This document shows, piece by piece, positions 5,639 to 20,137 of a stretch of DNA of 20,137 bases. Each line of letters opens with the position of its first letter. Position 1 is the first letter of the stretch. The stretch is from positions 1 to 20,137 of the IMG/VR virus record IMGVR_UViG_3300027747_000800; one strand, written 5' to 3'. The notes under the pieces were generated by a model. It saw nothing but the letters and a program-made list of their open reading frames with translations, ran no database searches and was not told the DNA's origin. This DNA is from a virus. The position numbers and the translations under genes were made by a program.

Positions 5639-5845
5639 ATGGACGCAGTAAAAGTTATCCGTCTGGCGCTGGATGTGTTGTCTGAGAAAGTAGTGTCTGT
5701 ACTGGCCTTGCTGACCGGGTTTACGTTAGCTGCGTGGGTCATGCACGCGCCTGAAATGTATAGACTTTTAGCACTTGTTGTTTACACTATCTTCAGTTTT
5801 GTTATCACTATAAGATTCCGACCTAAAGAGGTTAACGATGCCTGA
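5639..5845 (+). CDS. Two-helix membrane protein, holin-like candidate
   Basis: A 68-residue protein with a strong Shine-Dalgarno (AGGAG at 5629-5633). Two hydrophobic segments are clear, ~18-35 (VVSVLALLTGFTLAAWVM) and ~43-61 (LLALVVYTIFSFVITI), linked by a short HAPEMYR turn and followed by a charged tail (RFRPKEVNDA). This hairpin topology and size fit class II holins or other small phage membrane proteins. The endolysin gene nearby also carries membrane helices at its C-terminus, so this could be a holin, antiholin or pinholin partner, or an unrelated virion membrane protein. The 3' end overlaps the fibre gene by eight bases. Confidence 0.7.
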   Translation: MDAVKVIRLALDVLSEKVVSVLALLTGFTLAAWVMHAPEMYRLLALVVYTIFSFVITIRFRPKEVNDA

Positions 5846-9678: not shown

Positions 9679-10272
9679 TTCCCACACCGGCTCGGCCTGC
9701 TGCGGATGCCGCAACACTCGACGCCATCGGATGGCTTGTGCAAGATCAAAAGCAAGATCGGCACGTTGCGAATCGTGGTGCCGACCAACTTCCTCGCACA
9801 GTTGAGCACACGCCTCACGCTCTGCCAGCACCGCATCCAGCCCCGACTCGGCCTGCTCTTTGTCAACTTGCGGCTCGGCATTTGTCAACGCTTTGTCAAC
9901 CGGCTCGGCCTGTTGTCCTCTTGCTCGGATGGCATCAGCGCATTCTTCTGCGCTCATCATTCGATTTGCAAACCTATCGCATAACTGAGCGCACGCCTCA
10001 CGTTCTGCCAGCACAAATGCTTGCGTCCGCGTCTGCCCCGGCGTCCTAACCGCCACCGGCTCGGCCTGCTTATCCCATGTGACAACCCCCGTGCGAACGG
10101 TCTTCATGGGCACGGCTTTGTAAGTTTCTTCCGGCTCAACCACCGGCTCGTCCTGCTGCTCCAGCGCGGCGCGGAGTGCGGTGATTGCTTCGTCACACTT
10201 ACGCTCAGATGTGTGCTTGCCTAAGTTTTCAAGCGCATCCAGTGCCTGCTGCATAACTTCTCTGTCGCTCAT
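9550..10272 (-). CDS. Modular protein with duplicated AEREACAQLC unit and QAEPV linkers, unknown
   Basis: A 240-residue protein with GGAGGGAAA before its ATG and a four-base overlap with the upstream gene. The N-terminal ~35 residues (MQQALDALENLG...AITALRAALEQQ) form a helical unit common in small phage/prophage proteins. Two copies of LAEREACAQLC then occur, each followed by a variable helical segment ending in an Arg-rich Ala-Ile-Arg-(A/W) motif. The units are separated by (Q/K)QAEPV linkers. Underlying DNA copies of the duplicated unit (9802-9831 and 9985-10014) match at 27 of 30 bases. The C-terminal ~45 residues, rich in Ala/Glu/Asn, run antisense to the endolysin end. The function is unknown. 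Pairs of Cys in each unit may bind metal, but this is speculation. Confidence 0.7.
   Translation of the reverse strand: MSDREVMQQALDALENLGKHTSERKCDEAITALRAALEQQDEPVVEPEETYKAVPMKTVRTGVVTWDKQAEPVAVRTPGQTRTQAFVLAEREACAQLCDRFANRMMSAEECADAIRARGQQAEPVDKALTNAEPQVDKEQAESGLDAVLAEREACAQLCEEVGRHHDSQRADLAFDLAQAIRWRRVLRHPQQAEPVWELGVAGRLSAEASALAGCERRSEPEANHATQNCSNDTANDGGA
9641..9654. other. 14-base perfect palindrome near the convergent gene ends
   Basis: GCCGAGGCCTCGGC is a perfect palindrome lying in the overlap of the endolysin gene and the opposing minus-strand gene. As RNA it could form a five-pair stem with a GGCC loop on either strand. No T-tract follows, so it is not a classical terminator, but no other candidate for separating the two convergent operons was found. 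Confidence 0.35.
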
Positions 10273-10468
10273 TTTCCCTCCGTTTTAATCGGTTTGATTT
10301 CGAGATCCAATTTCGCCGGCTGATCAGCAGACTGCTGCGGATGTTCTTCCAGCAACCAATCAGCAACCCACGCCGCGCCGGGATATCTGCCTTGTCGTTC
10401 TGCGGCAACAGCGGTGGCCGCTGTGTTAATCAGTAAGTCTCGCAACCACCCCACCGGCTCGGCCTGTT
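9686..10468. repeat. Interspersed 16-base repeat encoding QAEPV linkers
   Basis: The plus-strand string ACCGGCTCGGCCTGCT or a one- to two-base variant occurs at 9686-9701, 9899-9914, 10055-10070, 10142-10157 and 10453-10468, with a more diverged copy at 9843-9858. On the coding minus strand each reads (Q/K)(Q/D)(A/E)EPV in the same frame, across two adjacent genes. Spacing is irregular (about 55-310 bases) and the sequences between copies differ, so this is a linker repeat, not a CRISPR array. A short duplication with three TTTGTCAAC strings lies at 9859-9898. Confidence 0.75.
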
Positions 10469-10556
10469 TTTCCAGCCTGTTCCTTAGTTCATCCCTTTGT
10501 GCAAGCACGCACTCGGGGCGGGTGCAGTAATAACTGCATGAATGGATGTCGCTCAT
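10269..10556 (-). CDS. Small Cys-containing protein with QAEPV linker, unknown
   Basis: A 95-residue protein overlapping both neighbours by four bases (ATGA). The N-terminus contains a compact Cys cluster (HSCSYYCTRPECVLAQRDELR), compatible with a small zinc-binding turn, leading into a helix and a KQAEPVGWL linker identical in kind to the next gene. The remainder is helical (LINTAATAVAAERQGRY) with a HPQQ segment also found in the next gene. The shared linker and HPQQ strings suggest that the two genes exchange modules or arose by duplication. No function can be assigned. Confidence 0.7.
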   Translation of the reverse strand: MSDIHSCSYYCTRPECVLAQRDELRNRLEKQAEPVGWLRDLLINTAATAVAAERQGRYPGAAWVADWLLEEHPQQSADQPAKLDLEIKPIKTEGK

Positions 10557-10771
10557 TCTGTATCCCCCGCTACCCAGATCGCCATTCCTCCAGTGCGCTC
10601 AAAGTCTTCCGTCTTGAGTCGGATGTACTGCTGACCCGACACGCCTGCCGACTGGACGTAGCCTTGAATACCCCAATCCTTGACCTCGGTGACAGTGACC
10701 ATGCAGGCACCAAACATCTCCTTCTCTGGTCTGACTTGAACAATCTCGCCAACAATAATGTCGTCAGTCAT
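10553..10771 (-). CDS. Conserved small phage protein with beta-barrel look, unknown
   Basis: I chose ATG 10771 because it overlaps the upstream stop as ATGA; a TTG at 10786 is the alternative. The 72-residue product (MTDDIIVGEIVQVRPEKEMF...) is mostly beta, with VTVTEVKDWGIQGYV and QYIRLKTEDFE strands, and looks like a small barrel. I recognise the RPEKEMFGACMVTVTEV...GIQGYV pattern from many unrelated phage genomes, where it stays uncharacterised. No catalytic or binding motif is visible. It overlaps the downstream gene by four bases. Confidence 0.75.
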   Translation of the reverse strand: MTDDIIVGEIVQVRPEKEMFGACMVTVTEVKDWGIQGYVQSAGVSGQQYIRLKTEDFERTGGMAIWVAGDTE

Positions 10772-10950
10772 ATCGAATTGATCCAATTTGTTAATGACTC
10801 ATCAATATCGGCTTGAAGACGCGCATCTGCGTATTTGAATCCTGAGTCCGATATCTGTTTTATCACCGCCACGATTCTTTCTTTGTCGGGAGATACGACC
10901 AGCAGCGCCTTCACGACGACTGCAAGTGCTACCTGCTGGCCGAGGGTCAT
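10768..10950 (-). CDS. Small helical protein, unknown
   Basis: The real gene begins at ATG 10950, supported by GGAGGGG at 10953-10959, although the same frame stays open much further upstream. The 60-residue product has a hydrophobic N-terminal helix (LGQQVALAVVVKALLVVS) followed by charged helices (PDKERIVAVIKQIS, ARLQADIDESLTNWI). It could be membrane-tethered or a small helical adaptor. It overlaps the next gene by four bases. The family was not recognised. Confidence 0.65.
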   Translation of the reverse strand: MTLGQQVALAVVVKALLVVSPDKERIVAVIKQISDSGFKYADARLQADIDESLTNWINSI

Positions 10951-10985
10951 TTCCCCTCCGCTTTGTTTATGTTGTGAGTGAATAC

Positions 10986-11078
10986 TTACTTCTTGTCTGA
11001 TCCCAGCACGTAGACAGCCCACAATATGACTAGGCAGCTGACTACGTTCAGGATCGCATCTAGTAGTTCGCCCATCAT
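10986..11078 (-). CDS. 30-residue single-span membrane peptide
   Basis: ATG 11078 overlaps the glycosyltransferase stop as ATGA. The product, MMGELLDAILNVVSCLVILW followed by AVYVLGSDKK, has one hydrophobic span (~9-25) and a basic end, the typical form of a small phage inner-membrane peptide. It may be inserted in the host membrane to modulate a transporter or lysis, but that is only an inference. The coding call rests on the exact four-base overlap and the clear membrane pattern. The 35 bases downstream contain only the next gene's leader. Confidence 0.55.
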   Translation of the reverse strand: MMGELLDAILNVVSCLVILWAVYVLGSDKK

Positions 11079-11842
11079 TTAGCAGGCAGCAGCCCGCCTT
11101 CAAAGAGATAGCTGCCCATATGCCCCAGATGAACCCACGGAGCGGCATATACCTTGAATCCGTGCTTCCTGGCGACCATGCAGAAGTGGTAATCCTCAGA
11201 TAGCAGGCGGTTCGTACCTTCCTCGATGCTGCAAGCGAAGTATTCGGTGATCTTGTCGCCTGCTGCCATCTGACCTGACAAGTCCACCACATCGTTGTTG
11301 TAGACGGGTACCAACTCTGCGAGTTTTTCCATCACATCGCGTTTGATGCACATAAAGCCTGTGCCACCGTTCCAGATCTCGACAGGTACATCTCTGGCTA
11401 CCGTAGTAGTGCCCTTGTAGTCCACCAAATTGACAACCAGTGCGCCGCTGTAGCCTCGCAGGTTCTGAGTCTCAACGCCATCTTTCGCAGCCCTGCTGAC
11501 GCCTTCCCAGTTGATTTCTTTCTTGGGATAGATACCGCAGATGATGTCTTTGTCGGCTTCAATCATTGTGCGGACATCATCAAAGTTCCAGCGGATGTCT
11601 GCGTCAACAAAGAACAGGTGAGTCGCGTCTGACTGCATGAATTGGCGTGCAAGTGCGTTTCTGCCGCGCTGGATCAAACTCTCATTAAACATGGCGGCAA
11701 ACGACATCTTGATGCCCTTGTTAGCGCACATCATTGCCGTTTGAATCAAGGATTGCGTGTAGTAGCCGCTGCACATACCGCCGTACATAGGCGTTGCAAT
11801 CATTACGTGAGCCTGTTTTTTCAAAGCAAATCCACCTTTCAC
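11075..11842 (-). CDS. GT-A-type glycosyltransferase
   Basis: A 255-residue protein from GTG 11842 (GAGGA seven bases upstream; GTGA overlap with the upstream gene). A TTG at 11824 is an alternative. The fold pattern is that of a nucleotide-sugar glycosyltransferase: a beta strand HVMIATPMYGG (~12-22), an RGRN motif (59-62) that usually lies next to the donor site, and a DxD-type motif DAD (80-82, FFVDADIRW) for metal and the sugar-nucleotide. Further on are GGTGFMCIKRDVM (~170-183), typical of the acceptor-side region, and EDYHFC (~220), a plausible catalytic acid position. The substrate is unknown: virion protein, modified DNA base, or host envelope are all possible. It sits within early/recombination genes, not the virion operon. 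Confidence 0.85.
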   Translation of the reverse strand: MKGGFALKKQAHVMIATPMYGGMCSGYYTQSLIQTAMMCANKGIKMSFAAMFNESLIQRGRNALARQFMQSDATHLFFVDADIRWNFDDVRTMIEADKDIICGIYPKKEINWEGVSRAAKDGVETQNLRGYSGALVVNLVDYKGTTTVARDVPVEIWNGGTGFMCIKRDVMEKLAELVPVYNNDVVDLSGQMAAGDKITEYFACSIEEGTNRLLSEDYHFCMVARKHGFKVYAAPWVHLGHMGSYLFEGGLLPAK

Positions 11843-12171
11843 GATAAATCCTCGATTCGGAGTTTGTAGGTGACCTTTTTACGGGTCTTGTTTATAGGCT
11901 GACGTATCCAGCCGTGTACGTGGATCTTGATCCCGGCTTCCCGTACTGAATTCAAGTTAGGAGCCGCCAAAATCTTGTTTACGCGAGCAGAGACGGCGCT
12001 GGAAGTAGTTTGTACCGCCAGCACCTCATCCCGACGCAAAGCAAGAATGTCGCACCATCCCCAGAGATCCTTACGCTGGGCCGTAAAGCTGTTCCAGTGT
12101 TCGACTACCTCGCAGTAGTAGCCCAGCTCGCGCAGGTATGCGAGGGATCTCTGAGTAGGCGACGTTGCCAT
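11839..12171 (-). CDS. PDDEXK-like nuclease-fold protein with degenerate active site
   Basis: A 110-residue protein that starts at ATG 12171, sharing one base with the H-NS-like stop (TAATG). The arrangement of an N-terminal helix (RSLAYLRELGYYCEVVEHW), a basic KDLWGWCDILAL strand containing D41, and a following strand LAVQTTS (51-57) matches small restriction-endonuclease-like nucleases of phages. In those, Asp is followed by an E-x-K strand. Here the E-x-K position reads Q54-T-T, so either it belongs to a Gln-bearing subgroup or activity is reduced. Proximity to RecT and a YqaJ-type exonuclease suggests a role in recombination, junction processing or host DNA degradation. Confidence 0.65.
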   Translation of the reverse strand: MATSPTQRSLAYLRELGYYCEVVEHWNSFTAQRKDLWGWCDILALRRDEVLAVQTTSSAVSARVNKILAAPNLNSVREAGIKIHVHGWIRQPINKTRKKVTYKLRIEDLS

Positions 12172-12458
12172 TAGTAGCTGGCGTTACCGTTAGACAGAGC
12201 CTGCATATCGTTGGTCTTGAACCAATTCGGCTGACGGCCACGGCCCGTCCAGGTCTTGCCGGTAGCCGGGTCAGTGTATTTCGGAATACCAGCAGGTTTT
12301 TCCTGTTTGACTTTCTTGCCAAAAATCTGGTCAGCAGTCAGATCGTGTGCAGCGATAAGATCTTTCACCTGCTTGATAGCGTCAGCCTGGTGTTCTTTTT
12401 TGAGTGCTTCGATTTGTGCTTCCAGATCGGCTTTTTGTTTCAGAAGGTCTTGAATCAT
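12171..12458 (-). CDS. H-NS family nucleoid-associated protein, phage-encoded
   Basis: The open frame extends upstream, but the real start is ATG 12458 with AAGGA upstream (about nine bases). The 95-residue product has residues 1-35 as a coiled-coil oligomerisation helix (LLKQKADLEAQIEALKKEHQ), a linker rich in Lys, and a C-terminal DNA-binding module KYTDPATGKTWTGRGRQPNW (60-79). The TWTGRGR core matches the family's TWTGQGR loop that inserts into the minor groove of AT-rich DNA. The version with DPATGKTWTGRGR is typical of betaproteobacterial members. A phage copy may silence phage or host genes, or compete with host H-NS. Its start lies inside the end of the upstream gene (77-base overlap). 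Confidence 0.9.
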   Translation of the reverse strand: MIQDLLKQKADLEAQIEALKKEHQADAIKQVKDLIAAHDLTADQIFGKKVKQEKPAGIPKYTDPATGKTWTGRGRQPNWFKTNDMQALSNGNASY

Positions 12459-12696
12459 GAGGTTGTTCCTTGTAGGTAAATTTACGGCCTCGGCAGACTT
12501 CTCTGGCCAATGTTGCGAGCCAGATAACGCCTTGGTTGTACTTGAGCGCGGATTCGTGTGAGCAGCATCCAGCGTAGGGACTTTTTTGCAGGAAGTCCGG
12601 TCGCCACCACAGATGCCACACACACTTTTCGCATTCGGGTTTGTCGTCAATCGTAAAGTGAAGACGGGGGGATTTCTCTTTCTTTTTTCTCGGCAC
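12382..12696 (-). CDS. Small Cys/His-rich protein, possible zinc-binding
   Basis: A 104-residue frame from GTG 12696. Residues ~20-80 look folded with C-x-x-C (CEKCVWHLWW), then CC-x-H (GCCSHESALKYNQG), then VCRGRKF, a Cys/His set fit for one zinc ion and of a form seen in short phage proteins. Residues after ~80 are read in a different frame from the start of the H-NS-like gene and are low-complexity Ser/Thr/Arg, so the functional part may end at about residue 80. It overlaps the upstream gene by 50 bases and the downstream one by 77, unusually long for this operon. Confidence 0.6.
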   Translation of the reverse strand: MPRKKKEKSPRLHFTIDDKPECEKCVWHLWWRPDFLQKSPYAGCCSHESALKYNQGVIWLATLAREVCRGRKFTYKEQPHDSRPSETKSRSGSTNRSTQKRTPG

Positions 12697-12844
12697 GGTC
12701 TAATTCATGCCTTACATTTAAAAGCACTTGCTCCTTAAAAATGTCTAACGCACGCTCAAATGCTGCAATACAGCGCATACGCTCGACGGTTTTAGTAAAA
12801 TCTGAAATGCGTTGATCAAACAGATTATCTGTCGGAATCGGCAC
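12647..12844 (-). CDS. Small helical protein, unknown
   Basis: The frame is open further upstream, but that part is antiphase to a better gene. The likely start is GTG 12844, immediately after the upstream stop (TGAGGTG). An ATG at 12778 is the alternative. The 65-residue product is helical and charged: NLFDQRISDFTKTVERMRC, FERALDIFKEQVLLNVRHEL, then a Lys/Glu-rich tail. No domain was recognised. The overlap with the next gene contains runs of six A and six C on the coding strand, so a sequencing or assembly slip there cannot be excluded. Confidence 0.5.
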   Translation of the reverse strand: MPIPTDNLFDQRISDFTKTVERMRCIAAFERALDIFKEQVLLNVRHELDRAEKKEREIPPSSLYD

Positions 12845-12845
12845 C

Positions 12846-13031
12846 TCAGTTATCTTGAGGCTCCCACTTGAAACACCAGTGCTTGGCGGTGACGTAGGGG
12901 AAGACGGCACAAAGGAAGGATTGCTCGACCTGAGGAGGGCCGTAGCGGCAGCTTCCAATCTTTTCTTCATCATCTGTCTGCTCATCTATAACCTCCATTA
13001 CACAGTATTTGCATTCCCAGCAAGACTTCAT
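12846..13031 (-). CDS. Small Cys-rich zinc-finger-like protein
   Basis: A 61-residue protein from ATG 13031, with AGGTG in the preceding eight-base gap. The pattern C-x-x-C-x-x-C near the N-terminus (SCWECKYCVM), SCRYGPP in the middle and HWCFKWEP at the end is a frequent signature in short bacterial and phage proteins, with FP-x-V before the last Cys. The Cys residues are likely to hold one zinc. Possible roles include binding nucleic acid or a host protein. It lies just after the SSB-like gene and is probably translated with it. Confidence 0.7.
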   Translation of the reverse strand: MKSCWECKYCVMEVIDEQTDDEEKIGSCRYGPPQVEQSFLCAVFPYVTAKHWCFKWEPQDN

Positions 13032-13039
13032 ATTTCACC

Positions 13040-13369
13040 TCAAAAAGGTATGTCATCATCCAGATCAGGGCGAGTAGACGCTGCCCTCGCATACTTAGGC
13101 GTGACTTCCCGCACAACATGGCGCTCCGCTTCCTTCTCCTGCGCTGCACCTTCCCGCTTCTCTTTTGAATATGTGTCCTCAGACAGAGACACCAAGTCTC
13201 CGTATGGGGTTTGTTTACGCCAGCCGCTAATTTGCAGCTTCTCGCCCGCCTTATAGTCCATCTTTAGAATCAAAAAGCCTTTCCAGTCGGGAGCCTTTTC
13301 ACTCTTCCGCTTCTCGGGGCTTTCCCAGAACAGGACGCCCTTGCCGGGCTGTTCAATATGCGTTGCCAT
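13040..13369 (-). CDS. SSB-like single-strand DNA-binding/replication accessory protein with DDDIPF tail
   Basis: A 109-residue protein from ATG 13369 with AGGA seven bases upstream. Residues ~1-65 are beta-rich (GVLFWESPEKRK, WKGFLILKMDY, EKLQISGWRK), compatible with an OB-like or related small beta fold seen in short phage proteins. A charged linker follows, and the last six residues are DDDIPF (104-109). That tip equals the C-terminus of E. coli SSB, which docks onto repair and replication proteins through its acidic residues and terminal Pro-Phe. It lies directly downstream of recT-like and yqaJ-like genes. I infer a DNA-binding or partner-recruiting role. Whether the body binds single-stranded DNA cannot be read from sequence. 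Confidence 0.75.
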   Translation of the reverse strand: MATHIEQPGKGVLFWESPEKRKSEKAPDWKGFLILKMDYKAGEKLQISGWRKQTPYGDLVSLSEDTYSKEKREGAAQEKEAERHVVREVTPKYARAASTRPDLDDDIPF

Positions 13370-13395
13370 TTCATTTCCTAAGTTTAGGGATTAGA

Positions 13396-13435
13396 CCCCC
13401 GATATGCTGCAATCCGTAGACTGACATACCGGGGG
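13396..13435 (-). promoter_or_regulatory. Stem-loop between the recT-like and SSB-like genes
   Basis: In the 72-base gap between the two genes, 13396-13406 pairs with 13425-13435 over 11 positions. In the minus-strand RNA every position pairs, one as G-U, around an 18-base loop, whereas the plus-strand reading has a mismatch. This favours a function in the leftward transcript. No T-tract follows, so it is more likely an RNA processing, stability or partial attenuation element than a terminator. The Shine-Dalgarno of the SSB-like gene lies about 15 bases downstream. Confidence 0.55.
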
Positions 13436-13441
13436 CAGATG

Positions 13442-14362
13442 TTACTCTTCGTCGCGGTGCCTGGTGTTGTTTTGCTGCTCCATCAGTTGGAATTCCATTT
13501 CCTCGAATTCCTCCTTGCTTTGCTTTGGGAACCGCTCAGGCGTTCCTCCTGCTGCTGAAATCGCAGCATTCAACTTCAGCCGATCCATGCTGGACATGAT
13601 GGCAAGCTGGTCAGCATTACAGGCACGCAGGTGGCCCAACTTGTCCACCTTCTGATCGTCGCTGTATTTTTTGCTGGCCTGAATCCTGACTACCAACGCC
13701 GCATAATTTTCGATCCAGTCATGCTCGGTCGGGTGCGTCGAGAACGGTTCTTCCATGCCCGGCACGTAGATCGGAATGCCTGGAATGTCTTCGTCAACAG
13801 GCGCAGGAGCATCCAGAACCTCGTTGAACGGGCTGTTAGTAGCTGGAATGACCTTACCCATGTCTTTAGTCTGCGGCGGCTTCTGAGGCTCAAAATCCTG
13901 TACCTCCTCGGGGGTGTATACACCGGCCACGCAGGCCGGGTAGACAGTGCGGATGCCCTCTGAGATGCACCGGGCACGCAACATGGCTCTGGGGTAATTC
14001 TTCCAGTTGTCCTTGCCGCCCAGACCGATACTGCGAGCCTGCTTCATCGTCCACTCGATCTTCACGCTGCCACCTTGCGGGTGGCTGAAGACTCCGGTGA
14101 CCGCTTCGTCTGTGTATGCCTCCCAGTTGACCTTTCCTCCTGCCGTCTGGAATCGCGCCAACATGGCGTCCGCCTTGAGGGCGGGCCTGCCTTGTATTAC
14201 GTGATAGTCCCTTGCTGCGATAGCCGGGTGCATCCCTTCCGCTTGTGCAATCAGCATGAGCGCCACAGCCTGCTCGGCGGTCTTCATCCCGAATAGCCCG
14301 GACTTGGCAATGGCGGTTGCCATCCTTTCAATATCCCCGATAGGGACTAATTCATTGCTCAT
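13442..14362 (-). CDS. recT: RecT-family single-strand annealing recombinase
   Basis: A 306-residue protein from ATG 14362 with AGAGG upstream. Residues ~30-155 show the RecT core: ALMLIAQAEGMHPAIAARDY (34-53), the VIQGRPALKADAML segment (55-68), and KDNWKNYPRAMLRARCISEG (117-136) followed by IRTVYPACVAGVYTPEEV. The second half is a variable acidic/Pro-rich tail, as is usual for the family. The protein anneals complementary single strands and partners an exonuclease that makes 3' overhangs. The gene is 11 bases downstream of the YqaJ-type exonuclease and precedes the SSB-like gene, the typical order of such recombination sets. The C-terminus (QQNNTRHRDEE) is polar and probably disordered. Confidence 0.92.
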   Translation of the reverse strand: MSNELVPIGDIERMATAIAKSGLFGMKTAEQAVALMLIAQAEGMHPAIAARDYHVIQGRPALKADAMLARFQTAGGKVNWEAYTDEAVTGVFSHPQGGSVKIEWTMKQARSIGLGGKDNWKNYPRAMLRARCISEGIRTVYPACVAGVYTPEEVQDFEPQKPPQTKDMGKVIPATNSPFNEVLDAPAPVDEDIPGIPIYVPGMEEPFSTHPTEHDWIENYAALVVRIQASKKYSDDQKVDKLGHLRACNADQLAIMSSMDRLKLNAAISAAGGTPERFPKQSKEEFEEMEFQLMEQQNNTRHRDEE

Positions 14363-14373
14363 TAGAAACCTCT

Positions 14374-15258
14374 TTATTTGATTAGAAAACGACGTGAGCC
14401 GGGTTGTTCAACAACAAACTGCGCGTGAATGTCTGGCATAGACACTTGAAACAGCTTGGCATCAAACTTCTTGCTAGGCTTGGATGACTTCCAGGTTGCC
14501 AGCACTTCATCCCCGACGGTAATCAGGGCTTCGTGCCGCCCCATCCATGCAAGAATCTGGGCTTGCAGGTCAGCTTCGGCAGACTCAAGCCGCTTAATGT
14601 CGTCCTTGATGGTCTTGAGCGACTGCACGGCCCTCTCGACGGCCTGAGTGGCGATTGCGACGGACGGATTGCTCACCGCGTAGGCCAGTTTGCAATCCTC
14701 AACGCTGCGAGGCTCGGGGATCGTGCCTGCGACGACATGGCCCCAGATAACTGCCATCTGCTTGCAGTGGGCGTCAATCTCTTCCTGCGTGAATCTGAGA
14801 TCGAACATCTCGAAAGTCTGACCGCCAAACAACACGGCCAGAACCACGCGGTCAACCTGCCAGCAGGCAGCCTCATGAATGCACTGTGCCCGCAAGTAAT
14901 GCGGAACAATGTTCTGATCCTTATCGAACAGCTTTGCGCTGAATGCCGAGAAATTCTTGCATTCAACTAACAGGCCATCACCGCGAAAGTCGGTATGCGA
15001 CTTCATGTAAGGCAGGGTCGGGTGAACCGCGATACCGTCTTCAGGCTCCAGCTCCATGCCCAGAGCCCTAGCGGCCAACTGACCGATAACGGGCTGCATG
15101 GTGTGCCCCATCTGAACAGCCTCAATCCCTGACAAGTCAGGCGGTGCCAGTTTGCCCTGGCGCTCTAACACCACGCTAACAGCCTCGCCCTTGCTGATGC
15201 GGGCTGCATCCGTGGCCCACAGGCCGGTATTGCGGATCTCGGGATCGAAGTCGCTCAT
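14374..15258 (-). CDS. YqaJ-like phage exonuclease (PDDEXK fold)
   Basis: A 294-residue protein from ATG 15258, preceded by GGAGGG. The YqaJ-type layout is visible: an N-terminal TDAARI segment (16-21) in place of the usual GGSDAA, then GHTMQPVIGQLAARALG (51-67), where the usual Glu is Gln (Q55). Next are SHTDF (88-92) with catalytic D90 and LLVECKN (96-102) with E99 and K101 of the D-(E-x-K) core. Residues ~205-240 are a charged coiled coil. The family degrades double-stranded DNA to 3' overhangs for its annealase, here the adjacent RecT. It overlaps the upstream gene by four bases. The Q55 variant occurs, as far as I recall, in other phage members, so activity is expected. Confidence 0.88.
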   Translation of the reverse strand: MSDFDPEIRNTGLWATDAARISKGEAVSVVLERQGKLAPPDLSGIEAVQMGHTMQPVIGQLAARALGMELEPEDGIAVHPTLPYMKSHTDFRGDGLLVECKNFSAFSAKLFDKDQNIVPHYLRAQCIHEAACWQVDRVVLAVLFGGQTFEMFDLRFTQEEIDAHCKQMAVIWGHVVAGTIPEPRSVEDCKLAYAVSNPSVAIATQAVERAVQSLKTIKDDIKRLESAEADLQAQILAWMGRHEALITVGDEVLATWKSSKPSKKFDAKLFQVSMPDIHAQFVVEQPGSRRFLIK

Positions 15259-15512
15259 ACACCCTCCGCTTTTTTGATTGCTGCGCGTGCGTTATCCCAG
15301 TCGGGACTGGAGCGATACCCGTGTGAGCAAACCCGCTTCAGCGCCTCCAACAGGTCGGGTGCGGCTGCGATCAATCGTGCATTGGCTTCAGCGTCGGGCA
15401 TATGTCCGGTAACACCGCAGACAAACTCTTCAACCGACCGAGCAAATATCACAAGCTGATGATGCGGGTCTGTACATAGCGCCTCCCACGGTCCCGGTGT
15501 GTGCTTACTCAT
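15255..15512 (-). CDS. HTPGPW-type small phage protein, unknown
   Basis: An 85-residue protein that overlaps both neighbours by four to eight bases. The N-terminal KHTPGPWEA and the later DAEANARLIAAAPDLLEALK followed by NARAAIKKAEG form one of the commonest uncharacterised signatures in phages and prophages of Gram-negative bacteria. The N-terminal part is beta-like and the C-terminal part a helix pair. No function is established to my knowledge. Placement immediately before the exonuclease gene suggests co-expression with recombination functions, which may be only operon convenience. Confidence 0.85.
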   Translation of the reverse strand: MSKHTPGPWEALCTDPHHQLVIFARSVEEFVCGVTGHMPDAEANARLIAAAPDLLEALKRVCSHGYRSSPDWDNARAAIKKAEGV

Positions 15513-15750
15513 GGGTCACCCCGACAGACTTAGCAATGTATTTTTTCGGGACGTACAACAGAGCCTCGGGGCCACAGATGCCGTGATTGGCTCGATTGAG
15601 ATCGCAGAACCCCGCGATAGGTGCGCCCGTTACCAGATTGACTTTTCCGCCCGCCGCGCAGCGGCTGAACTCTTCTGGTTTCTGGAATGACTGTTCTGGA
15701 GGACTCCAGTGCGTGCAGTGAATGCACAGTTTGATGGGTGATGATGACAT
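15505..15750 (-). CDS. Cys-rich small protein, probable zinc-binding
   Basis: An 81-residue protein from ATG 15750 behind an AGGGAGTTC leader. Cys residues occur as C-x-x-C (LCIHCTHW), SRC, GFCDL and GICGPE, with NLVTGAP before the third; together these could bind one or two zinc ions. This layout recurs in short phage proteins I cannot name. It overlaps the next gene by eight bases. It is one of five small Cys-rich proteins in the leftward operon. Confidence 0.75.
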   Translation of the reverse strand: MSSSPIKLCIHCTHWSPPEQSFQKPEEFSRCAAGGKVNLVTGAPIAGFCDLNRANHGICGPEALLYVPKKYIAKSVGVTHE

Positions 15751-15756
15751 TGAAGG

Positions 15757-15787
15757 AACTCCCTATTTGCACGGCGTTATTGCCGTG
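15757..15787 (-). promoter_or_regulatory. Leader hairpin and GGGAGTTC ribosome-site element
   Basis: In the 84-base gap before the 15505-15750 gene, the minus-strand RNA has a perfect hairpin (CACGGC and GCCGTG arms, 15770-15787, six-base loop) followed by AGGGAGTTC and the ATG at 15750. The same GGGAGTTC string precedes the genes starting at 17952 and 18109, and the latter also has a hairpin. The hairpin may tune ribosome access or protect a processed 5' end. Confidence 0.5.
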
Positions 15788-15834
15788 AATGAATTAGACA
15801 ATTAGCAGATTAGATTGTGGTTGTTTTTCTGCAA

Positions 15835-16080
15835 CTAGTGGCGGTTTTGCCACAAGTAAATTGCACGTTGACGGACTGTCTCCGCATGGGCTTTGCCTGC
15901 TGACGCGGCCAGCCCTAGCAGGGCACCGGCCATCTTCGCCGGATGATCGTGCATGAGTAGATCTACCGCATCCCGCTCTATTCGGGCTTCTGGGCATAGC
16001 TCGCAGACCAGTCGGCCTGTTAGTAGCATGACGCGCCTATCGTCGGGATTACAGGTGCATTCGCGGGTGACTTCAGTCAT
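15835..16080 (-). CDS. Small Cys-containing helical protein, unknown
   Basis: An 81-residue protein whose ATG overlaps the upstream stop as ATGA. The N-terminus has ECTCNPDDRRVMLLTGRLVC followed by ELC, a pair of Cys knuckles around a beta hairpin. The rest is helical (ERDAVDLLMHDHPAKMAGAL, ASAGKAHAETVRQRAIYLWQ). This suggests a zinc-stabilised head with a helical body, possibly a regulator or host-protein binder. No family was recognised. It is the second gene of the long leftward operon. Confidence 0.65.
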   Translation of the reverse strand: MTEVTRECTCNPDDRRVMLLTGRLVCELCPEARIERDAVDLLMHDHPAKMAGALLGLAASAGKAHAETVRQRAIYLWQNRH

Positions 16081-16253
16081 ATCAAACTCATCTGGGACTT
16101 TTGCGTATCGTCTACTTTTTTTTGTTGTTTGTGCAGTTTAGGCAAAAACCCAACGAACCAAGTGTAATCACCATCTGGACGCCAGGCAGGTATCGGTATG
16201 CCTTGCATCATCAACTTGTGAATCTCGCTATTTGTATTGTTTCCGCGTCTCAT
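16077..16253 (-). CDS. First gene of the long leftward operon, small protein
   Basis: A 58-residue product from ATG 16253 (MRRGNNTNSEIHKLMMQGIP...). An in-frame TGA lies three codons upstream, so no longer protein is possible. No good Shine-Dalgarno is present, so translation may be weak or depend on the folded leader. The middle (IPIPAWRPDGDYTWFVGFLP) looks like a short beta unit and the C-terminus is Lys/Gln-rich. The four-base overlap with the next gene supports the call. Function is unknown. Confidence 0.6.
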   Translation of the reverse strand: MRRGNNTNSEIHKLMMQGIPIPAWRPDGDYTWFVGFLPKLHKQQKKVDDTQKSQMSLI

Positions 16254-16280
16254 GATAATTCAGGCGATAGATGCCCCAAG

Positions 16281-16330
16281 GGTGGTTAGCACTCCACCTC
16301 GCCCCGCAGGGGCCATAATCCCGGCCCTGC
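16281..16330 (-). promoter_or_regulatory. Hairpin cluster in the leader of the long leftward operon
   Basis: Several stems can form. GGTGG (16281-16285) pairs with CCACC (16294-16298) across an eight-base loop. GCCCC and GGGGC (16301-16313) make a five-pair stem with a three-base loop. Alternatively GCAGGGGCC (16306-16314) pairs with GGCCCTGC (16323-16330) with one bulged base. The last two share bases and exclude each other. The position 28-80 bases before the first gene, which lacks a good Shine-Dalgarno, suggests a folded 5' leader. No riboswitch class was recognised. Confidence 0.5.
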
Positions 16331-16359
16331 CTAGCGTACCCTAAGGCTACGATTCATTC

Positions 16360-16398
16360 GGTCACAGTCTTGTACCACGCTTGTACTGTGACCTGTAC
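16360..16398. promoter_or_regulatory. Inverted repeat with three phased (C/T)TGTAC iterons, candidate operator
   Basis: GGTCACAGT (16360-16368) and ACTGTGACC (16385-16393) form a perfect nine-base inverted repeat with a 16-base spacer. CTTGTAC occurs at 16369-16375 and 16380-16386 and CCTGTAC at 16392-16398, so copies begin 11 and 12 bases apart, about one helical turn. Such phasing is typical of binding sites for a repressor, activator or replication initiator. The inverted repeat could alternatively fold in RNA. The protein that would bind is unknown. Confidence 0.55.
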
Positions 16399-16497
16399 CT
16401 GGTCCCTCGTAGACAGGCCAGGCGGATCGATGGGGGTGTGACCATGACCGGTGTTTTCTCCCTGGCAGCCCATGCAAGCTCACTGCTAACGCGAGGG

Positions 16498-16600
16498 GAA
16501 CGATCAAGTAGGCATAAAAAAAGGGCTTAAGACTGACCCCGGTAGTGTCCCCTAGTTAGGGGCGGAGCCAGACTTAAACCCTTGATCGACACTACTCGAC
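16498..16600 (-). terminator. Complex leftward terminator / structured RNA with alternative pairings
   Basis: In the minus-strand RNA, 16583-16569 (AAGGGTTTAAGTCTG) pairs with 16535-16521 (CAGTCTTAAGCCCTT) over 15 positions with one G-U and one U-U mismatch. The 3' arm runs into a tract of seven U, the form of a Rho-independent terminator. Its large loop contains a CCCC-TAACTA-GGGG hairpin (16562-16549). A second pairing, GTAGTGTC (16595-16588) with GACACTAC (16549-16542), crosses the first, and CGATCAAG/CTTGATCG (16588-16581 and 16508-16501) is a further outer option. It lies 38 bases past the last gene of the upstream leftward block and would end it. The crossing pairs suggest a pseudoknot or switch. 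Confidence 0.65.
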
Positions 16601-16637
16601 GGGCTGATAGTACCAGACCCGCCGAGTGTGTCAATCC

Positions 16638-16835
16638 TCACCAGTTCCTGACCTTAACCTCCCATTGTTCGTCAGCCGGTCGATCGTCGTCATGCGTGAC
16701 GAAAGCCTCACAGGGAGAATGATCGTCGCGGGTTTTATTTTCCGCCCACGTCGCAAATTCGACAGCTTGCTTTTTTGTCGGGAAGTACTCCCATCTCACC
16801 CCGAAACAGGGGAGCATATCGCGATTGAATTGCAT
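16638..16835 (-). CDS. Small protein, unknown
   Basis: ATG 16835 is preferred over an in-frame TTG at 16847 because GGAGG (16841-16845) sits five bases before it. The 65-residue product (MQFNRDMLPCFGVRWEYFPT...) has a short beta part, a helix (KKQAVEFATWAENKTRDD), and an acidic middle (FVTHDDDRPADEQWEVKV) that reads as a second strand. This alpha/beta layout is frequent in small phage proteins of unknown function. It is the last gene of the leftward early block. Confidence 0.65.
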   Translation of the reverse strand: MQFNRDMLPCFGVRWEYFPTKKQAVEFATWAENKTRDDHSPCEAFVTHDDDRPADEQWEVKVRNW

Positions 16836-16836
16836 A

Positions 16837-17055
16837 TCAGCCTCCAATAATTGAATGAATCCAGATCAAGAAAATGACGATAAGCATGATCGCGCACAGC
16901 GCGAATATCAGGCCGTCGACTGTGATAGTGGGGAACCTGATGCCGGGCTGGCGGTCGATTCCAGGTACGAGGGCCTTCTGTACCCTCTGGGCGTCCTCGT
17001 CCAGTCGGGGACGGTTTCGGGGATCGTATGCGCTGCCGATTACGGGTCTGGTCAT
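16837..17055 (-). CDS. Small tail-anchored membrane protein
   Basis: A 72-residue protein from ATG 17055 with GGGGA upstream. Residues 1-45 are hydrophilic and Arg/Pro-rich (TRPVIGSAYDPRNRPRLDED), and residues ~47-68 are one hydrophobic span (GLIFALCAIMLIVIFLIWIH), so the protein should sit in the inner membrane with its N-terminal half in the cytoplasm. The stop lies one base before the next ATG. A role in blocking superinfection or altering host membrane functions is conceivable, but nothing in the sequence specifies it. Confidence 0.65.
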   Translation of the reverse strand: MTRPVIGSAYDPRNRPRLDEDAQRVQKALVPGIDRQPGIRFPTITVDGLIFALCAIMLIVIFLIWIHSIIGG

Positions 17056-17064
17056 GGTTGTCCC

Positions 17065-17277
17065 CTAGTGAGTAACGATAACGGCCACGGGCGATCCCTG
17101 CGTGTTCAGACGCACGGTATACCTGCCGAATGAGTGACGGGTGACAATATAACGTTTCATGCCCAAATTACCGCGTGAATTGCGGCAGGCGCGAAGATAA
17201 TGTGCAATCCAAGCACGGGATTCTGTGCCTGCGAATTGCGGCTCATCTTCAAAGTAAAACAGACCTGCGGTTTTCAT
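17065..17277 (-). CDS. Small basic protein, unknown
   Basis: A 70-residue product from ATG 17277, preceded by a perfect AGGAGG (17284-17289) whose distal end overlaps the upstream gene's stop. The N-terminal part (MKTAGLFYFEDEPQFAG) is beta/acidic, the middle helical and Arg-rich (RAWIAHYLRACRNSRG), and the C-terminal part (KRYIVTRHSF, RYTVRLNTQG, PVAVIVTH) looks like three short strands. An internal Met (MKRYIV) could be a second start. The family was not recognised. The strong Shine-Dalgarno indicates efficient translation. Confidence 0.65.
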   Translation of the reverse strand: MKTAGLFYFEDEPQFAGTESRAWIAHYLRACRNSRGNLGMKRYIVTRHSFGRYTVRLNTQGSPVAVIVTH

Positions 17278-17288
17278 GTGGAAACCTC

Positions 17289-17399
17289 CTAGAATGGTGC
17301 GGCCGGAACATCGTCCGGCATGGGCACGGGTTGCGTCGGGACAGGGTAGCGCAGCCGACCGAATGGCCAGCTTGCGTCGTCTTTGTAGGGCCAGCTCAT
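17289..17399 (-). CDS. 36-residue Pro-rich peptide
   Basis: ATG 17399 shares one base with the upstream stop (TAATG). The product (MSWPYKDDASWPFGRLRYPV followed by PTQPVPMPDDVPAAPF) has no predicted fold and is rich in Pro, Trp and Asp. It fills an otherwise empty 120-base slot between two genes, and its overlap geometry matches that of its neighbours, which is the main support. It may be a short binding peptide. A non-functional frame remains possible. Confidence 0.45.
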   Translation of the reverse strand: MSWPYKDDASWPFGRLRYPVPTQPVPMPDDVPAAPF

Positions 17400-17725
17400 T
17401 AGAAGTTAGCGTAGACGATGGAGTCGTCTAGTACCGCGACGACACTAGTTCGATCAGTCATCCAGTCAACAATCTGATCTAGTTCCGATTTGCCGGGGTC
17501 AAAATCGATTGGGATATCGTACTGCTCGATCAGTTCTGCGAATGTGCTTTCAGTATAGTCGCAGCAGATAGCGACAACATCCAGCTCGATCTCGACGCCG
17601 CTATCCGATTCCAACTGTTCCAGATAGTCGAACAGTTCAGAGAGAGCAACACGGCTGAACTGAGTACCCCGGCCTGCGTCCTTGAACGCTCGCAGGAAGT
17701 CATGACAATGAATGGTCGCCTTCAT
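17399..17725 (-). CDS. Acidic conserved phage protein, unknown
   Basis: A 108-residue strongly acidic protein from ATG 17725, overlapping the upstream gene by four bases. I recognise a pattern common to many phages: (G)xGRGxQFS-x-x-ALxxLFDYLEQLE, then ELDVVAICCDYTE, then a C-terminal VVAVLDDSIVYANF. Residues ~20-45 are helical, the ICCDY segment is a central strand and the C-terminus a second strand. The net negative charge could suggest a DNA mimic or an inhibitor of a host nuclease, but that is speculation. No function is established to my knowledge. Confidence 0.75.
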   Translation of the reverse strand: MKATIHCHDFLRAFKDAGRGTQFSRVALSELFDYLEQLESDSGVEIELDVVAICCDYTESTFAELIEQYDIPIDFDPGKSELDQIVDWMTDRTSVVAVLDDSIVYANF

Positions 17726-17952
17726 GCTGCCACCTGCATGGTGCGAGTCGGGAACTGTTTCTGTACGTCTGCGAGTACTAGAGCACGGATGCCGTGGGTG
17801 TCGAGATTGCCTTCCGGATAGCCGAGTAGGTCGAAAGCATGGTAGACAGCCTGCTCGACCGTCAGACGGGATACATGGTCGAGGACAAGCTGGATAGCCA
17901 GCACGCCGACTACGCGGCGAGTGTGCAAGCTCAGAGGGATAGTCTTAGTCAT
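17722..17952 (-). CDS. Small helical protein, unknown
   Basis: The frame is open upstream, but ATG 17952 is preferred because a GGGAG site (in AGGGAGTTCCC) precedes it at normal spacing. The 76-residue product has a basic N-terminus (MTKTIPLSLHTRR), a hydrophobic helix (VVGVLAIQLVLDHV), and further amphipathic helices (VEQAVYHAFDLLG, GIRALVLADVQKQF). It looks like a compact all-helical protein. No family was recognised. It overlaps the next gene by four bases. Confidence 0.65.
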   Translation of the reverse strand: MTKTIPLSLHTRRVVGVLAIQLVLDHVSRLTVEQAVYHAFDLLGYPEGNLDTHGIRALVLADVQKQFPTRTMQVAA

Positions 17953-17980
17953 GGTAGGGAACTCCCTGATAAATGGTGGG

Positions 17981-18109
17981 TTAGATGCGATTGCGACGAC
18001 GGGCAGCTTGTTCGCTGTTTTCGTAGATTTCAATCGCGGTGAAAAAGGCAAGTATGACCATGCCCACAATGTAGATTCCGCTGATGATGAAGGGAAGATA
18101 GTCAGCCAT
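17981..18109 (-). CDS. 42-residue membrane peptide, first gene of the leftward early block
   Basis: From ATG 18109, with GGGAG upstream (AACGGGAGTTC). The product begins MADYLPFIISGIYIVGMVIL, continues with AFFTAIEIYENSE and ends in a basic QAARRRNRI, giving one membrane span (~5-25) and a positive cytoplasmic tail. It is the promoter-proximal gene, so it should be made early and in quantity. Early phage membrane peptides often act on host membranes or block superinfection; this is an inference only. Confidence 0.65.
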   Translation of the reverse strand: MADYLPFIISGIYIVGMVILAFFTAIEIYENSEQAARRRNRI

Positions 18110-18130
18110 GGCAAGAACTCCCGTTAGATG

Positions 18131-18184
18131 CCGCAACAAGTGATGCGGTGATTAGAAGTATACAGGCTTAAGATGAGAATGCAA
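18131..18184 (-). promoter_or_regulatory. Leftward sigma70-type promoter with leader hairpin
   Basis: On the minus strand TTGCAT (18184-18179) and TATACT (18162-18157) are separated by 16 bases, matching four to five of six positions in each consensus hexamer. Transcription would start near 18150 and run into the 18109 gene. The early leader RNA can form CCGCA-TCACTTGT-TGCGG (18148-18131), a perfect five-pair hairpin. This is the best promoter in the window and probably drives the leftward early block. Confidence 0.6.
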
Positions 18185-18189
18185 CCCCT

Positions 18190-18205
18190 CTATATGTATA
18201 TATAG
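18190..18205. repeat. AT-rich near-palindrome, copy 1
   Basis: CTATATGTATATATAG is a 16-base near-palindrome (one mismatched pair), directly upstream of the leftward -35 hexamer. A closely related element lies at 18351-18370 in the opposite orientation. Placement suggests an operator or a melting/bending element at the promoter. Confidence 0.5.
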
Positions 18206-18253
18206 TAGAAAATGAAACGTAGTATTTATGATACATAGTGTGTTGTATGTATA

Positions 18254-18280
18254 GACTATCGACAGAATACCTGGACTATC
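18254..18280. repeat. Two GACTATCGA direct repeats 20 bases apart
   Basis: GACTATCGA begins at 18254 and again at 18274, a spacing of two helical turns. GACTATC is found once more at the centre of the palindrome at 18375-18393. These may be protein-binding half-sites of one regulator. Confidence 0.45.
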
Positions 18281-18350
18281 GAAGGTGACGATCCGAGAGA
18301 GATAAGCTATCGCCCGTCCGCTCGCTGCGCGTCGCTCCTTACATATGTGG

Positions 18351-18370
18351 TCTATATATATATGTATAGA
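18351..18370. repeat. AT-rich near-palindrome, copy 2
   Basis: TCTATATATATATGTATAGA has 10-base arms that match their reverse complement at nine positions. It resembles copy 1 at 18190-18205 in inverted orientation, about 150 bases away. It is immediately followed by the 19-base perfect palindrome. Confidence 0.5.
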
Positions 18371-18374
18371 GGAC

Positions 18375-18393
18375 AGTAGATAGACTATCTACT
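18375..18393. promoter_or_regulatory. 19-base perfect palindrome, candidate operator
   Basis: AGTAGATAGACTATCTACT has two perfect nine-base arms around a central base, the classic shape of a dimeric repressor or activator site. It carries the GACTATC string seen upstream. A second perfect palindrome, CCCAATTGGG, lies ten bases downstream at 18403-18412. The binding protein is unknown and no helix-turn-helix regulator is evident in the window. Confidence 0.55.
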
Positions 18394-18649
18394 AGGGGCT
18401 CACCCAATTGGGGTCTAGCTACCCTACGCTATACCTATATGTGGCAGTCGATCCTGGGCTGATCTGATGCGTCTGACAGGCATTGGCAACGGGCAGGGTA
18501 GACGGATCGGGTGGTGTGCGACGGCAGGCGGCATGGCCCTATGCGATGGGACGGAGGGGGCGTGTGTGCGAGCACCCCAACAGGCTCCCCCCCAAAGAAA
18601 AAATCATTTATGCTGTTGTTTCTCTGCCTCTCCTCCCCCTGTGTGGGTT

Positions 18650-18676
18650 GACCCGTCTGTGTACGGGTCTTTTTTT
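18650..18676 (+). terminator. Rho-independent terminator upstream of the rightward operon
   Basis: GACCCG (18650-18655) and CGGGTC (18664-18669) form a perfect six-pair GC-rich stem with an eight-base loop, followed directly by seven T (18670-18676). It functions only on the plus strand. Because the next gene starts 33 bases later, it is either the end of a short rightward RNA from the control region or an attenuator for the late operon. Confidence 0.8.
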
Positions 18677-18709
18677 GTGTGTACACTCAGATGATTTAGT
18701 GAGGTGTAG

Positions 18710-18928
18710 ATGCAAGCGTTAGAGATAGAGAAGGAAGTGCCTACCCCGAAAGAGCGGGTTGTGTACAAGTACCCGTACGACGATATGCAGATCGGGGACA
18801 GCTTCACGGTGCCGGTGTCGCACAAAGCGAATGTGATGAATGCTAACCACCGTGCTGGCAAGCGTCTGGCAAGACGGTTTATGGCCCGTACAGAGGGCGA
18901 GTACGTACGTGTGTGGAGAATCAGATGA
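18710..18928 (+). CDS. Small basic conserved phage protein, unknown
   Basis: A 72-residue product from ATG 18710 with GAGGT upstream. The pattern YPYDDMQIGDSFTVPV, then a basic helix (NANHRAGKRLARRFMAR), then EGEYVRVWRIR at the end, is one I associate with short phage proteins of unknown function. The strand-helix-strand layout with a positively charged helix would suit nucleic-acid binding. It is the first gene of the rightward operon after the terminator. Its stop overlaps the next start as ATGA. Confidence 0.75.
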   Translation: MQALEIEKEVPTPKERVVYKYPYDDMQIGDSFTVPVSHKANVMNANHRAGKRLARRFMARTEGEYVRVWRIR

Positions 18929-19269
18929 CTGACCAAGAACAGCTAGAACTTGCAGCGAAGGCAGCGGGGATTGAAGTTATTGGCGATGCTTTGTTTGATT
19001 TTGGTTATGGAATAGATGTTATTTGTCCAGAATCGGGCAACGATATGCAATGGAACCCGCTAAAAGATTACGGGGATGCGTTGCAATTAGCGGTTAAATT
19101 AAACTTAAGTATTCAAAACGGCGAGCAAGATCTTGGAGTTCGGGTTTGGTTTGTACGTAGCAAAGACGGTTTAATTAAAGTGCATGAGTTTTCTAGAAAT
19201 AATCCTGAGAGAGCAGTTTGCAGGGCCATCGTCCGCGCAGCGGCAGAGATTGGTAAGGGGATGAAATGA
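18925..19269 (+). CDS. Small protein resembling the phage ABA-sandwich (DUF2591-type) family
   Basis: ATG 18925 was chosen for its ATGA overlap and GGAGA upstream; a GTG at 18913 is in frame. The 114-residue protein shows the pattern W-N-P-L-x-D-x-G-D-A-L-x-L-A-V-K-L in the middle and AIVRAAAEIGKGMK at the end. I associate both with a common small phage family often annotated as ABA sandwich domain. Its codons are clearly more A/T-rich than both neighbours (TTAAATTAAACTTAAGT-type stretches), pointing to separate acquisition. The function of the family is not known to me. Confidence 0.75.
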   Translation: MTDQEQLELAAKAAGIEVIGDALFDFGYGIDVICPESGNDMQWNPLKDYGDALQLAVKLNLSIQNGEQDLGVRVWFVRSKDGLIKVHEFSRNNPERAVCRAIVRAAAEIGKGMK

Positions 19270-19985
19270 GCATGACCACAGCGGTGGTGATCGTCACCAG
19301 CGGGCGAGCGGAGCTTGAGAACGCTGTGCTGAGTGTTCGACAACAGACGCGGCCTGTAGACCGGACGTATATCGTCACAGACGGAATCATGTCATTCCGG
19401 CAGTATTGCGATCTCCGGGATGATTACGCTTCTGCAAGCTGCTCTGTCAGTTACTGGGATGGGAAGATCGGTGGTGCTGGCCTGGAAGGCCGACGGCTAT
19501 TTGCAGCAGCACCCGGACTTGTGAATGAAGACATCCTGTTCATGCTTCCTGACGACGATTGGTTTGGGATGAGGCACGTAGAAGACCTTGCGCGCATCAT
19601 CGAGGATGGTAACGACTGGGCGTACAGCTTGATGAAGGTGTACGACAAGGATGGCAAGTTCCTGTTTGACGACATCTGCGAGTGTCTGGGGGAAGAGCAT
19701 CCGGCGTACAACACTGGGGTGAACTTCGCCCCTACAGGCTCTATAGCCATGAAGACGCCCCTGTACGCAAACATAGCGTCTGTGTACAACAGCCGTGACT
19801 GGGGGCCGGACAGACTGTTCTACGACACTGCCAAGCGGATGTATCCCAAGTTCCGGGGAAGCAAGAATCACACGAACTGTTTCAGGCTAGGCGGTAACGA
19901 AGGATCGTCTACTGCTGACTTCTTCCTGCAAGGCAACAAACTTATGCGCGAGCATTACGGCAATAAGATGCCGTGGCAGAAATGA
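19266..19985 (+). CDS. GT2-like glycosyltransferase upstream of the terminase
   Basis: A 239-residue protein from ATG 19266 (four-base overlap with the upstream gene). The N-terminal strand TTAVVIVTSGR and AVLSVRQQT (4-29) followed by YIVTDG (35-40) match family 2 glycosyltransferases, whose S-V-x-x-Q-T helix is typical. LPDDDWF (94-100) holds the DxD metal/nucleotide-sugar motif (96-98). Later features are NTGVNFAPTGSIAMKT (~149-164) and RDWGPDRLFYDTAKR (~177-191), which include a plausible catalytic Asp. The acceptor is unknown. Its stop overlaps the terminase start, so it should be translated together with the packaging protein, an unusual partner for an enzyme of this class. Confidence 0.82.
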   Translation: MSMTTAVVIVTSGRAELENAVLSVRQQTRPVDRTYIVTDGIMSFRQYCDLRDDYASASCSVSYWDGKIGGAGLEGRRLFAAAPGLVNEDILFMLPDDDWFGMRHVEDLARIIEDGNDWAYSLMKVYDKDGKFLFDDICECLGEEHPAYNTGVNFAPTGSIAMKTPLYANIASVYNSRDWGPDRLFYDTAKRMYPKFRGSKNHTNCFRLGGNEGSSTADFFLQGNKLMREHYGNKMPWQK

Positions 19986-20137
19986 ACTTTAATCTCAAAC
20001 AGTTTTATAACTTCTGTTCTCAATTAAAGATTGAGACAAAAGAACATGGTCTGAAGAAGATGGATAATCTTCTGGGCACTCAGACATATGTGATGGATGA
20101 GATCGCAAAGGGTCTGGCAGATGATGTACATTTTTTT
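19982..20137 (+). CDS. Terminase large subunit, N-terminal part (truncated by window end)
   Basis: The ATG overlaps the glycosyltransferase stop as ATGA. The 52 visible residues include FCSQLKIETKEHGLKKMDNL then LGTQTYVMDEIAKGLADDVH followed by FF. This segment, with LGTQxYxxxEIAxGLxDDxHxF, is what commonly precedes the ATPase Walker A region in a group of podovirus and siphovirus large terminases. The ATP-binding and nuclease motifs lie beyond the window. The gene would encode the packaging motor that cuts and translocates DNA into the procapsid. The identification is from this N-terminal pattern alone. Confidence 0.75.
   Translation, partial: MNFNLKQFYNFCSQLKIETKEHGLKKMDNLLGTQTYVMDEIAKGLADDVHFF

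Follow-up and report, generated by a model that had tools for sequence, protein, structure and literature searches.

A covarying pseudoknot in a predicted small RNA of phages with its own promoter and terminator, and the structured RNA behind it

A viral DNA of 20,137 nucleotides (the window: the whole of the stretch analysed, positions 1 to 20,137 of IMG/VR record IMGVR_UViG_3300027747_000800) contains on its minus strand an intrinsic terminator whose stem is crossed by a second complementarity, which raises the question of whether the locus is a switch, an attenuator or the source of a stable, pseudoknotted small RNA, each of which had been suggested in an earlier note on this DNA. The complementary segments listed in that note were all found on the minus strand where they had been placed, including the eight-base match B/B' that crosses the terminator (16595-16588 / 16549-16542).

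Promoter, extent and fold of the small RNA

The features of the small RNA, all on the minus strand, are as follows.

16607 to 16634, minus: predicted sigma-70 promoter, TTGACA-16-TACTAT with TG before the -10 box; predicted start ~16600
16516 to 16600, minus: small RNA of ~85 nt; fold z -6.5; family model R1, 38.9 bits
16584 to 16600, minus: 5' hairpin GUCG/CGAU, its loop holding B; 94% of cells paired
16588 to 16595, minus: B, the pseudoknot strand in the hairpin loop, GTAGTGTC (also written GUAGUGUC); family covariation
16563 to 16583, minus: A, 5' side of the terminator stem; 99.2% of cells paired
16549 to 16562, minus: CCCC/GGGG hairpin stacked on the terminator stem; 88.7% paired
16542 to 16549, minus: B', the pseudoknot strand in the bulge, GACACTAC (also written GACACUAC); family covariation
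16516 to 16541, minus: A', 3' side of the terminator stem, plus the U-tract; from the fold, with the U-tract retained in relatives

The promoter, unreported in the earlier note, ends 7 nt upstream of the first hairpin base; since its end lies at 16607, transcription is predicted to begin at ~G16600, where the 5' hairpin also begins, and a start there combined with a U-tract ending at 16516 gives an RNA of ~85 nt. A promoter search over positions 9500-20137 returned two promoter-like sites, of which that of the small RNA was alone in having 10/12 matches. The RNA opens with a 5' hairpin, continues with a long terminator hairpin bearing the CCCC/GGGG hairpin (16562-16559 pairing with 16552-16549, minus strand) and a 7-nt bulge, and ends in U7. 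Read on the minus strand, arm A comprises AAGGGTTTAAG (16583-16573), a U-U mismatch and CTGGCTCCG (16571-16563), and arm A' comprises CGGGGTCAG (16541-16533), U and CTTAAGCCCTT (16531-16521). Folding of the 85-nt RNA yielded -42.1 kcal/mol (z = -6.5), none of 200 shuffles being equally stable, and a 141-nt region gave a z of -5.2 relative to shuffled sequence. With its own promoter, an intrinsic terminator and no coding content, the locus has the attributes of an sRNA gene, as judged from its sequence. The loop strand GTAGTGTC occurs four times in the window against 0.5 expected, the occurrences outside the RNA lying at 3695-3702 and 5690-5697 on the plus strand.

Relatives and the loop-bulge pairing

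Entry to the relatives was by way of the RecT protein of the window, which led to phage contigs, and a subsequent profile search traced conservation of the non-coding sequence beyond the terminator as far as ~16254, a continuation not reported in the earlier note. A core pattern drawn from the conserved part, TTACTCATGC N25-50 GCAGCAGTAA, matched at least 120 stretches when viral contigs were scanned, against an estimated ~3 expected by chance; few of the matches listed look spurious. The U-tract, although outside the search pattern, is kept in the relatives, and the spacing from promoter to RNA is the same in nearly all of them. Of 31 whole viral contigs tested, many of them picked for carrying the pattern, 26 carry the small RNA, as a rule in single copy, second and weaker matches being the opposite strand of the palindromic stem. 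One locus (L069, 4191-4397) has the small RNA in two tandem copies.

Outside these contigs the RNA was seldom met. The core pattern gave eight matches in 85,000 prokaryote genomes, all spurious by eye and devoid of the partner helix, and none in 300 genomes from the order of a Burkholderiales assembly, a search run without a positive control; a 16-mer pattern matched at chance level only. A DNA search of the window against deposited phages returned no match, and blastn with family members, which may miss diverged copies, identified an environmental genome (MW202484, 33504-33613) as the sole carrier among 50,697 phage records. The window had no match in Rfam 15 at the gathering threshold, positions 16200-16700 returned nothing at E values up to 5, and the small RNA of 36 further loci was likewise unmatched in Rfam. 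Neither the motif nor the Betaproteobacteria-1 RNA was found described in the open-access literature. To judge from these searches, the small RNA looks like a widespread and undescribed kind of phage RNA that is absent from Rfam.

Covariance model R1, built from 49 pattern matches with the window left out and B/B' omitted from the structure, detected the window copy at 38.9 bits (E 1.7e-9), thereby placing it in the family. Covariation was then counted over 71 copies in an alignment not fitted to B/B'. Paired cells made up 99.2% for the terminator stem and 94% for the 5' hairpin, the latter with both sides changed at 5/5 pairs; for the small C/G hairpin the figure was 88.7%, with both sides changed in 4/4. 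B/B' itself was paired in 88.5% of cells, with both sides changed in 6/7 pairs, and covariation over the whole structure reached 0.538, as against 0.187 for shuffled copies and 0.07-0.12 for slid partners.

An examination making no use of the alignment register led to the same result: loop and bulge could form 7 or more contiguous pairs in 69/71 copies, with 33 different 7-mers, and the mean helix length was 7.3 bp, whereas swapped partners gave 4.1 bp and never more than 4.6 over 1000 shuffles. Of the two copies that fell short, L016 proved to be misaligned, and has GUGAGAGC/GCUCUCAC; three loci that lack the 5' hairpin (L128, L171 and L180) were seen by eye to retain a longer B/B'. In the window, B/B' forms 7 contiguous pairs in register, and 8 with the next base, which gives this copy the loop-bulge pseudoknot of the R1 family. 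A crossing perfect match of at least 8 bp arose in 1.2% of shuffles, so that in a single sequence such a match would be only suggestive, and it is the relatives that settle B/B'. Compensatory changes in relatives, whose absence the earlier note had named as refuting its proposal, were thus found, and its description of a pseudoknotted small RNA fits. Its contention that the segment holds more than a simple terminator needs is likewise borne out by the covariation across the family.

The same note had taken B/B' for an alternative to the terminator, a view that did not survive. With B in a hairpin loop and B' in a bulge, both can pair while the terminator stem remains closed: freeing the loop and the bulge costs 2.1 kcal/mol, and the resulting duplex is worth -8.9 kcal/mol, values that do not include a pseudoknot penalty. 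B/B' is therefore compatible with A/A', and not an alternative to it.

Outer helix, gene context and the second RNA

A third helix, P0, involves sequence beyond the U-tract.

16503 to 16511, minus: 3' strand of P0, CUACUUGAU, pairing with the 5' end of the RNA, GUCGAGUAG (16600-16592), in read-through RNA

In the window P0 consists of GUCGAGUAG/CUACUUGAU, 9 pairs counted from the predicted first base; its 5' side is made up of the 5' strand of the hairpin plus the first half of the loop, and its partner lies just behind the U-tract. Across the family the mean duplex energy was -11.9 kcal/mol, compared with -9.7 kcal/mol for swapped partners, none of 5000 shuffles being as strong; two controls were flat. 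Pseudoknot-free folding of the read-through RNA placed P0 in 63/71 copies and the 5' hairpin in 4, whereas with swapped downstream segments P0 appeared in 51 of the 71 folds on average and in 55 at most. P0 consequently appears to be a family feature that would compete with the 5' hairpin and B/B', on evidence weaker than that for B/B' since sequence relatedness survives shuffling.

The earlier note had recorded an outer pairing of a different register, CGATCAAG (16588-16581) with CTTGATCG (16508-16501), which is present in the window. That register is not conserved, the same downstream segment being conserved instead as a partner of the 5' strand; what endures of the proposal is a competitor helix with family support, which in the window takes the form GTCGAGTAG/CTACTTGAT when read in the conserved register.

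P0 is expected only in read-through RNA, as it can form only once the polymerase is past the U-tract, and it can accordingly have no say over termination in the same round. A switch is plausible by way of the outer helix, and not for the reason originally given, as B/B' spares the terminator. The attenuator proposal fared less well: the mutually exclusive terminator and antiterminator pairings that an attenuator or riboswitch has ahead of its terminator were not found here, P0 being behind the U-tract, and no conserved downstream gene was seen.

The genes around the small RNA differ between phages. It lies behind the large terminase gene in L133, L094 and L119, before terminase genes in L170 and L086, between a T7-like scaffold gene and the capsid gene in L108, before primase/helicase in L175, before ParB-like and helicase genes in L127, behind a cytosine methylase gene in L131, and before YqaJ/RecT-type genes in the group to which the window belongs. 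In two loci, L182 (primase/helicase) and L112 (terminase), convergent genes follow the cassette, but small same-strand ORFs lie ahead of them, which goes against a reading in which no same-strand gene stands behind it. No conserved regulated gene was found behind the small RNA across the contexts of the relatives; the location at a boundary between two operons, as originally described, thus holds for the window and is not a conserved property. So varied a context makes a device serving one operon unlikely and is most simply read as that of a portable RNA locus. Seven loci (L103, L085, L108, L199, L033, L164 and L144) have a terminator hairpin just upstream whose loop contains the -35 box (TTGACA or a similar sequence), an arrangement that would insulate the RNA from upstream transcription. 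Further non-coding sequence is shared among L093, L086 and L170, for example CACCACCGGCAGTCGAAATCGGTTAAAATGG in L093 and L170, and AATCGGTTATAAAAATA upstream of the promoter in all three. The terminase large subunits of L133 (229-2541, minus) and L170 (6320-9457, plus) have intein-type domains (Pfam Intein_splicing, Vint).

The conserved stretch behind the U-tract corresponds to a further RNA.

16254 to 16502, minus: second structured non-coding RNA (class a), ~250 nt; profile E 1.3e-67

Compensatory changes were found at 22/30 predicted pairs of the class-a RNA in 23 sequences (the window and 22 relatives), and a long-range pairing of GGUGG with CCACC is conserved; no Rfam match was obtained. 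It begins within ~15 nt of the U-tract, and no promoter of its own was seen. Present in dozens of viral contigs, the class-a RNA was located by pattern in 32 further contigs, few of which have an R1-type small RNA in front and most of which have other terminator-ended RNAs upstream. Among these (L213-L244), at least four sequence-unrelated types, assigned by eye from few members each, again show the arrangement B, A, B', A', U-tract. Their B/B' differs between members, for example GGCGAUAACC/GGUUAUCGCC and GGCGAACACC/GGUGUUCGCC, or GCAAUAAAGG/CCUUUAUUGC and AAUCGGUAGU/ACUACCGAUU, a variation noted without a formal covariation count. None of these types matched Rfam. A free duplex search for the outer helix over long upstream stretches of the other types gave no signal (1762/3000 shuffles as strong), and an end-anchored test gave 1/5000 shuffles (8/5000 for the other types alone); as the anchored test was designed after the unanchored one had failed, P0 in these types is only suggestive.

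The occupants of both positions vary. In L222 the class-a RNA lies directly behind a gene with no such first module, and in other phages other sequence classes occupy the second position, among them the Betaproteobacteria-1 RNA (RF02932), found directly behind the small RNA in L138 (4919-5036, minus) and L191 (4468-4583, plus). Two loci, L099 and L188, have an extra structured module of ~80 nt, of the TGGGATTGCC...GGCAATCCC type, between the small and the second RNA.

Mode of action and known systems

Comparison of sequences establishes the 5' hairpin (hp1), A/A', CCCC/GGGG, B/B', the second RNA, the conservation of promoter and U-tract, the changing context and, on weaker evidence, P0 as a feature of the family. 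On balance the locus is probably a phage non-coding RNA locus acting in trans through its structure, with a terminated and a read-through form. Host RNA polymerase would initiate at ~16600, and most transcripts would probably end at the U-tract to give the ~85-nt RNA, a single compact pseudoknot in which the 5' hairpin would turn back to lie alongside the terminator stem, its loop paired with the bulge. On read-through, the first ~9 nt would leave the hairpin and pair behind the U-tract as P0, breaking the loop-bulge pairing, and the RNA would extend into the second structured RNA (16502-16254). The RNA may be stable and may act, for instance, by binding a protein of host or phage and so retaining or titrating it. 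No target was found, nor a conserved single-stranded seed, and the latter absence inclines us to action through structure in preference to antisense pairing. Weighing against the reading as a whole are the missing target and seed, the small same-strand ORFs in L182 and L112, the strained linker of the diverged window copy, and the second RNA, which lies close behind the U-tract with no promoter of its own seen. More tentatively, at somewhat below an even chance, the whole may be a modular two-part RNA device in which a crossed terminator gives either a stable pseudoknotted RNA or, on read-through, a re-paired 5' end plus a second effector RNA, and in which unrelated phages exchange modules, drawing on at least four more sequence-unrelated ones for the first position and on several classes for the second.

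The main rival, which we consider less likely, is a conditional terminator acting in cis: a portable promoter cassette would carry it as an attenuator or as a leader for antitermination, and the stability of the pseudoknot would set read-through into the second RNA and the genes beyond. In its favour, the RNA is always beside a promoter, and further structured RNA usually comes after it; the hairpin and B/B' face a competitor in P0; and crossed terminators of unrelated sequence occupy the equivalent position ahead of the class-a RNA, which lies close to the U-tract with no promoter of its own seen and would suit a cis leader as well as the trans reading. Against it, the downstream gene is not conserved, B/B' does not exclude A/A', and P0, forming only past the terminator, cannot decide termination in the same round.

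It is considerably less probable that B/B' forms between molecules to build dimers, rings or fibres after the manner of the phi29 pRNA loops. In its favour, almost all copies have a loop complementary to the bulge, with the two changing in concert, and the window copy, a diverged family member, has a hairpin-stem linker of just 1 nt, so short that pairing within one molecule is strained there and either slight fraying or between-molecule pairing would be needed. In most copies, however, the linker measures 5-12 nt, which leaves room for intramolecular pairing, and there is neither a matching Rfam family nor a tie to packaging genes. A primer RNA or a replication origin with an RNA-DNA hybrid is very improbable: a non-coding, predictedly transcribed locus, single in each genome and free to move, would suit it, but strong RNA covariation and a U-tract fit a released RNA better. 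An ordinary terminator with chance complementarities, to which the 1.2% frequency of the window-only 8-bp crossing match lends a little room, is refuted by the family-wide covariation of the helices, B/B' and P0.

The presence of a covarying pseudoknotted RNA in well over 100 phage contigs points to a common layer of phage biology missed by protein-based annotation, and the return of the crossed layout at an equivalent position, in RNAs of unrelated sequence, hints at a principle of wider reach.

Four known RNAs bear comparison. Lambda 6S RNA, the lambdoid late leader, is a short RNA made from a phage promoter with an intrinsic terminator close downstream; the small RNA described here is also promoter-started and ended by a nearby intrinsic terminator, but is tied to no late or Q-type gene and has a structure conserved by covariation. 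The packaging RNA of phi29 (Rfam phage_pRNA) is a phage RNA with covarying complementary loops, and its Rfam model was unmatched in the window; the small RNA shares the covarying complementary strands, and differs in having its own terminator hairpin and contexts beyond packaging genes. The Betaproteobacteria-1 RNA (RF02932) is distinct from the small RNA and absent from the window, although it takes the place of the second RNA in L138 and L191. Finally, the put RNA antiterminators of HK022 are structured RNAs at the start of phage transcripts, independent of the genes behind them and without a terminator of their own; set beside them by description, the small RNA is similarly a structured, gene-independent RNA at a transcript start, but one that carries a terminator.
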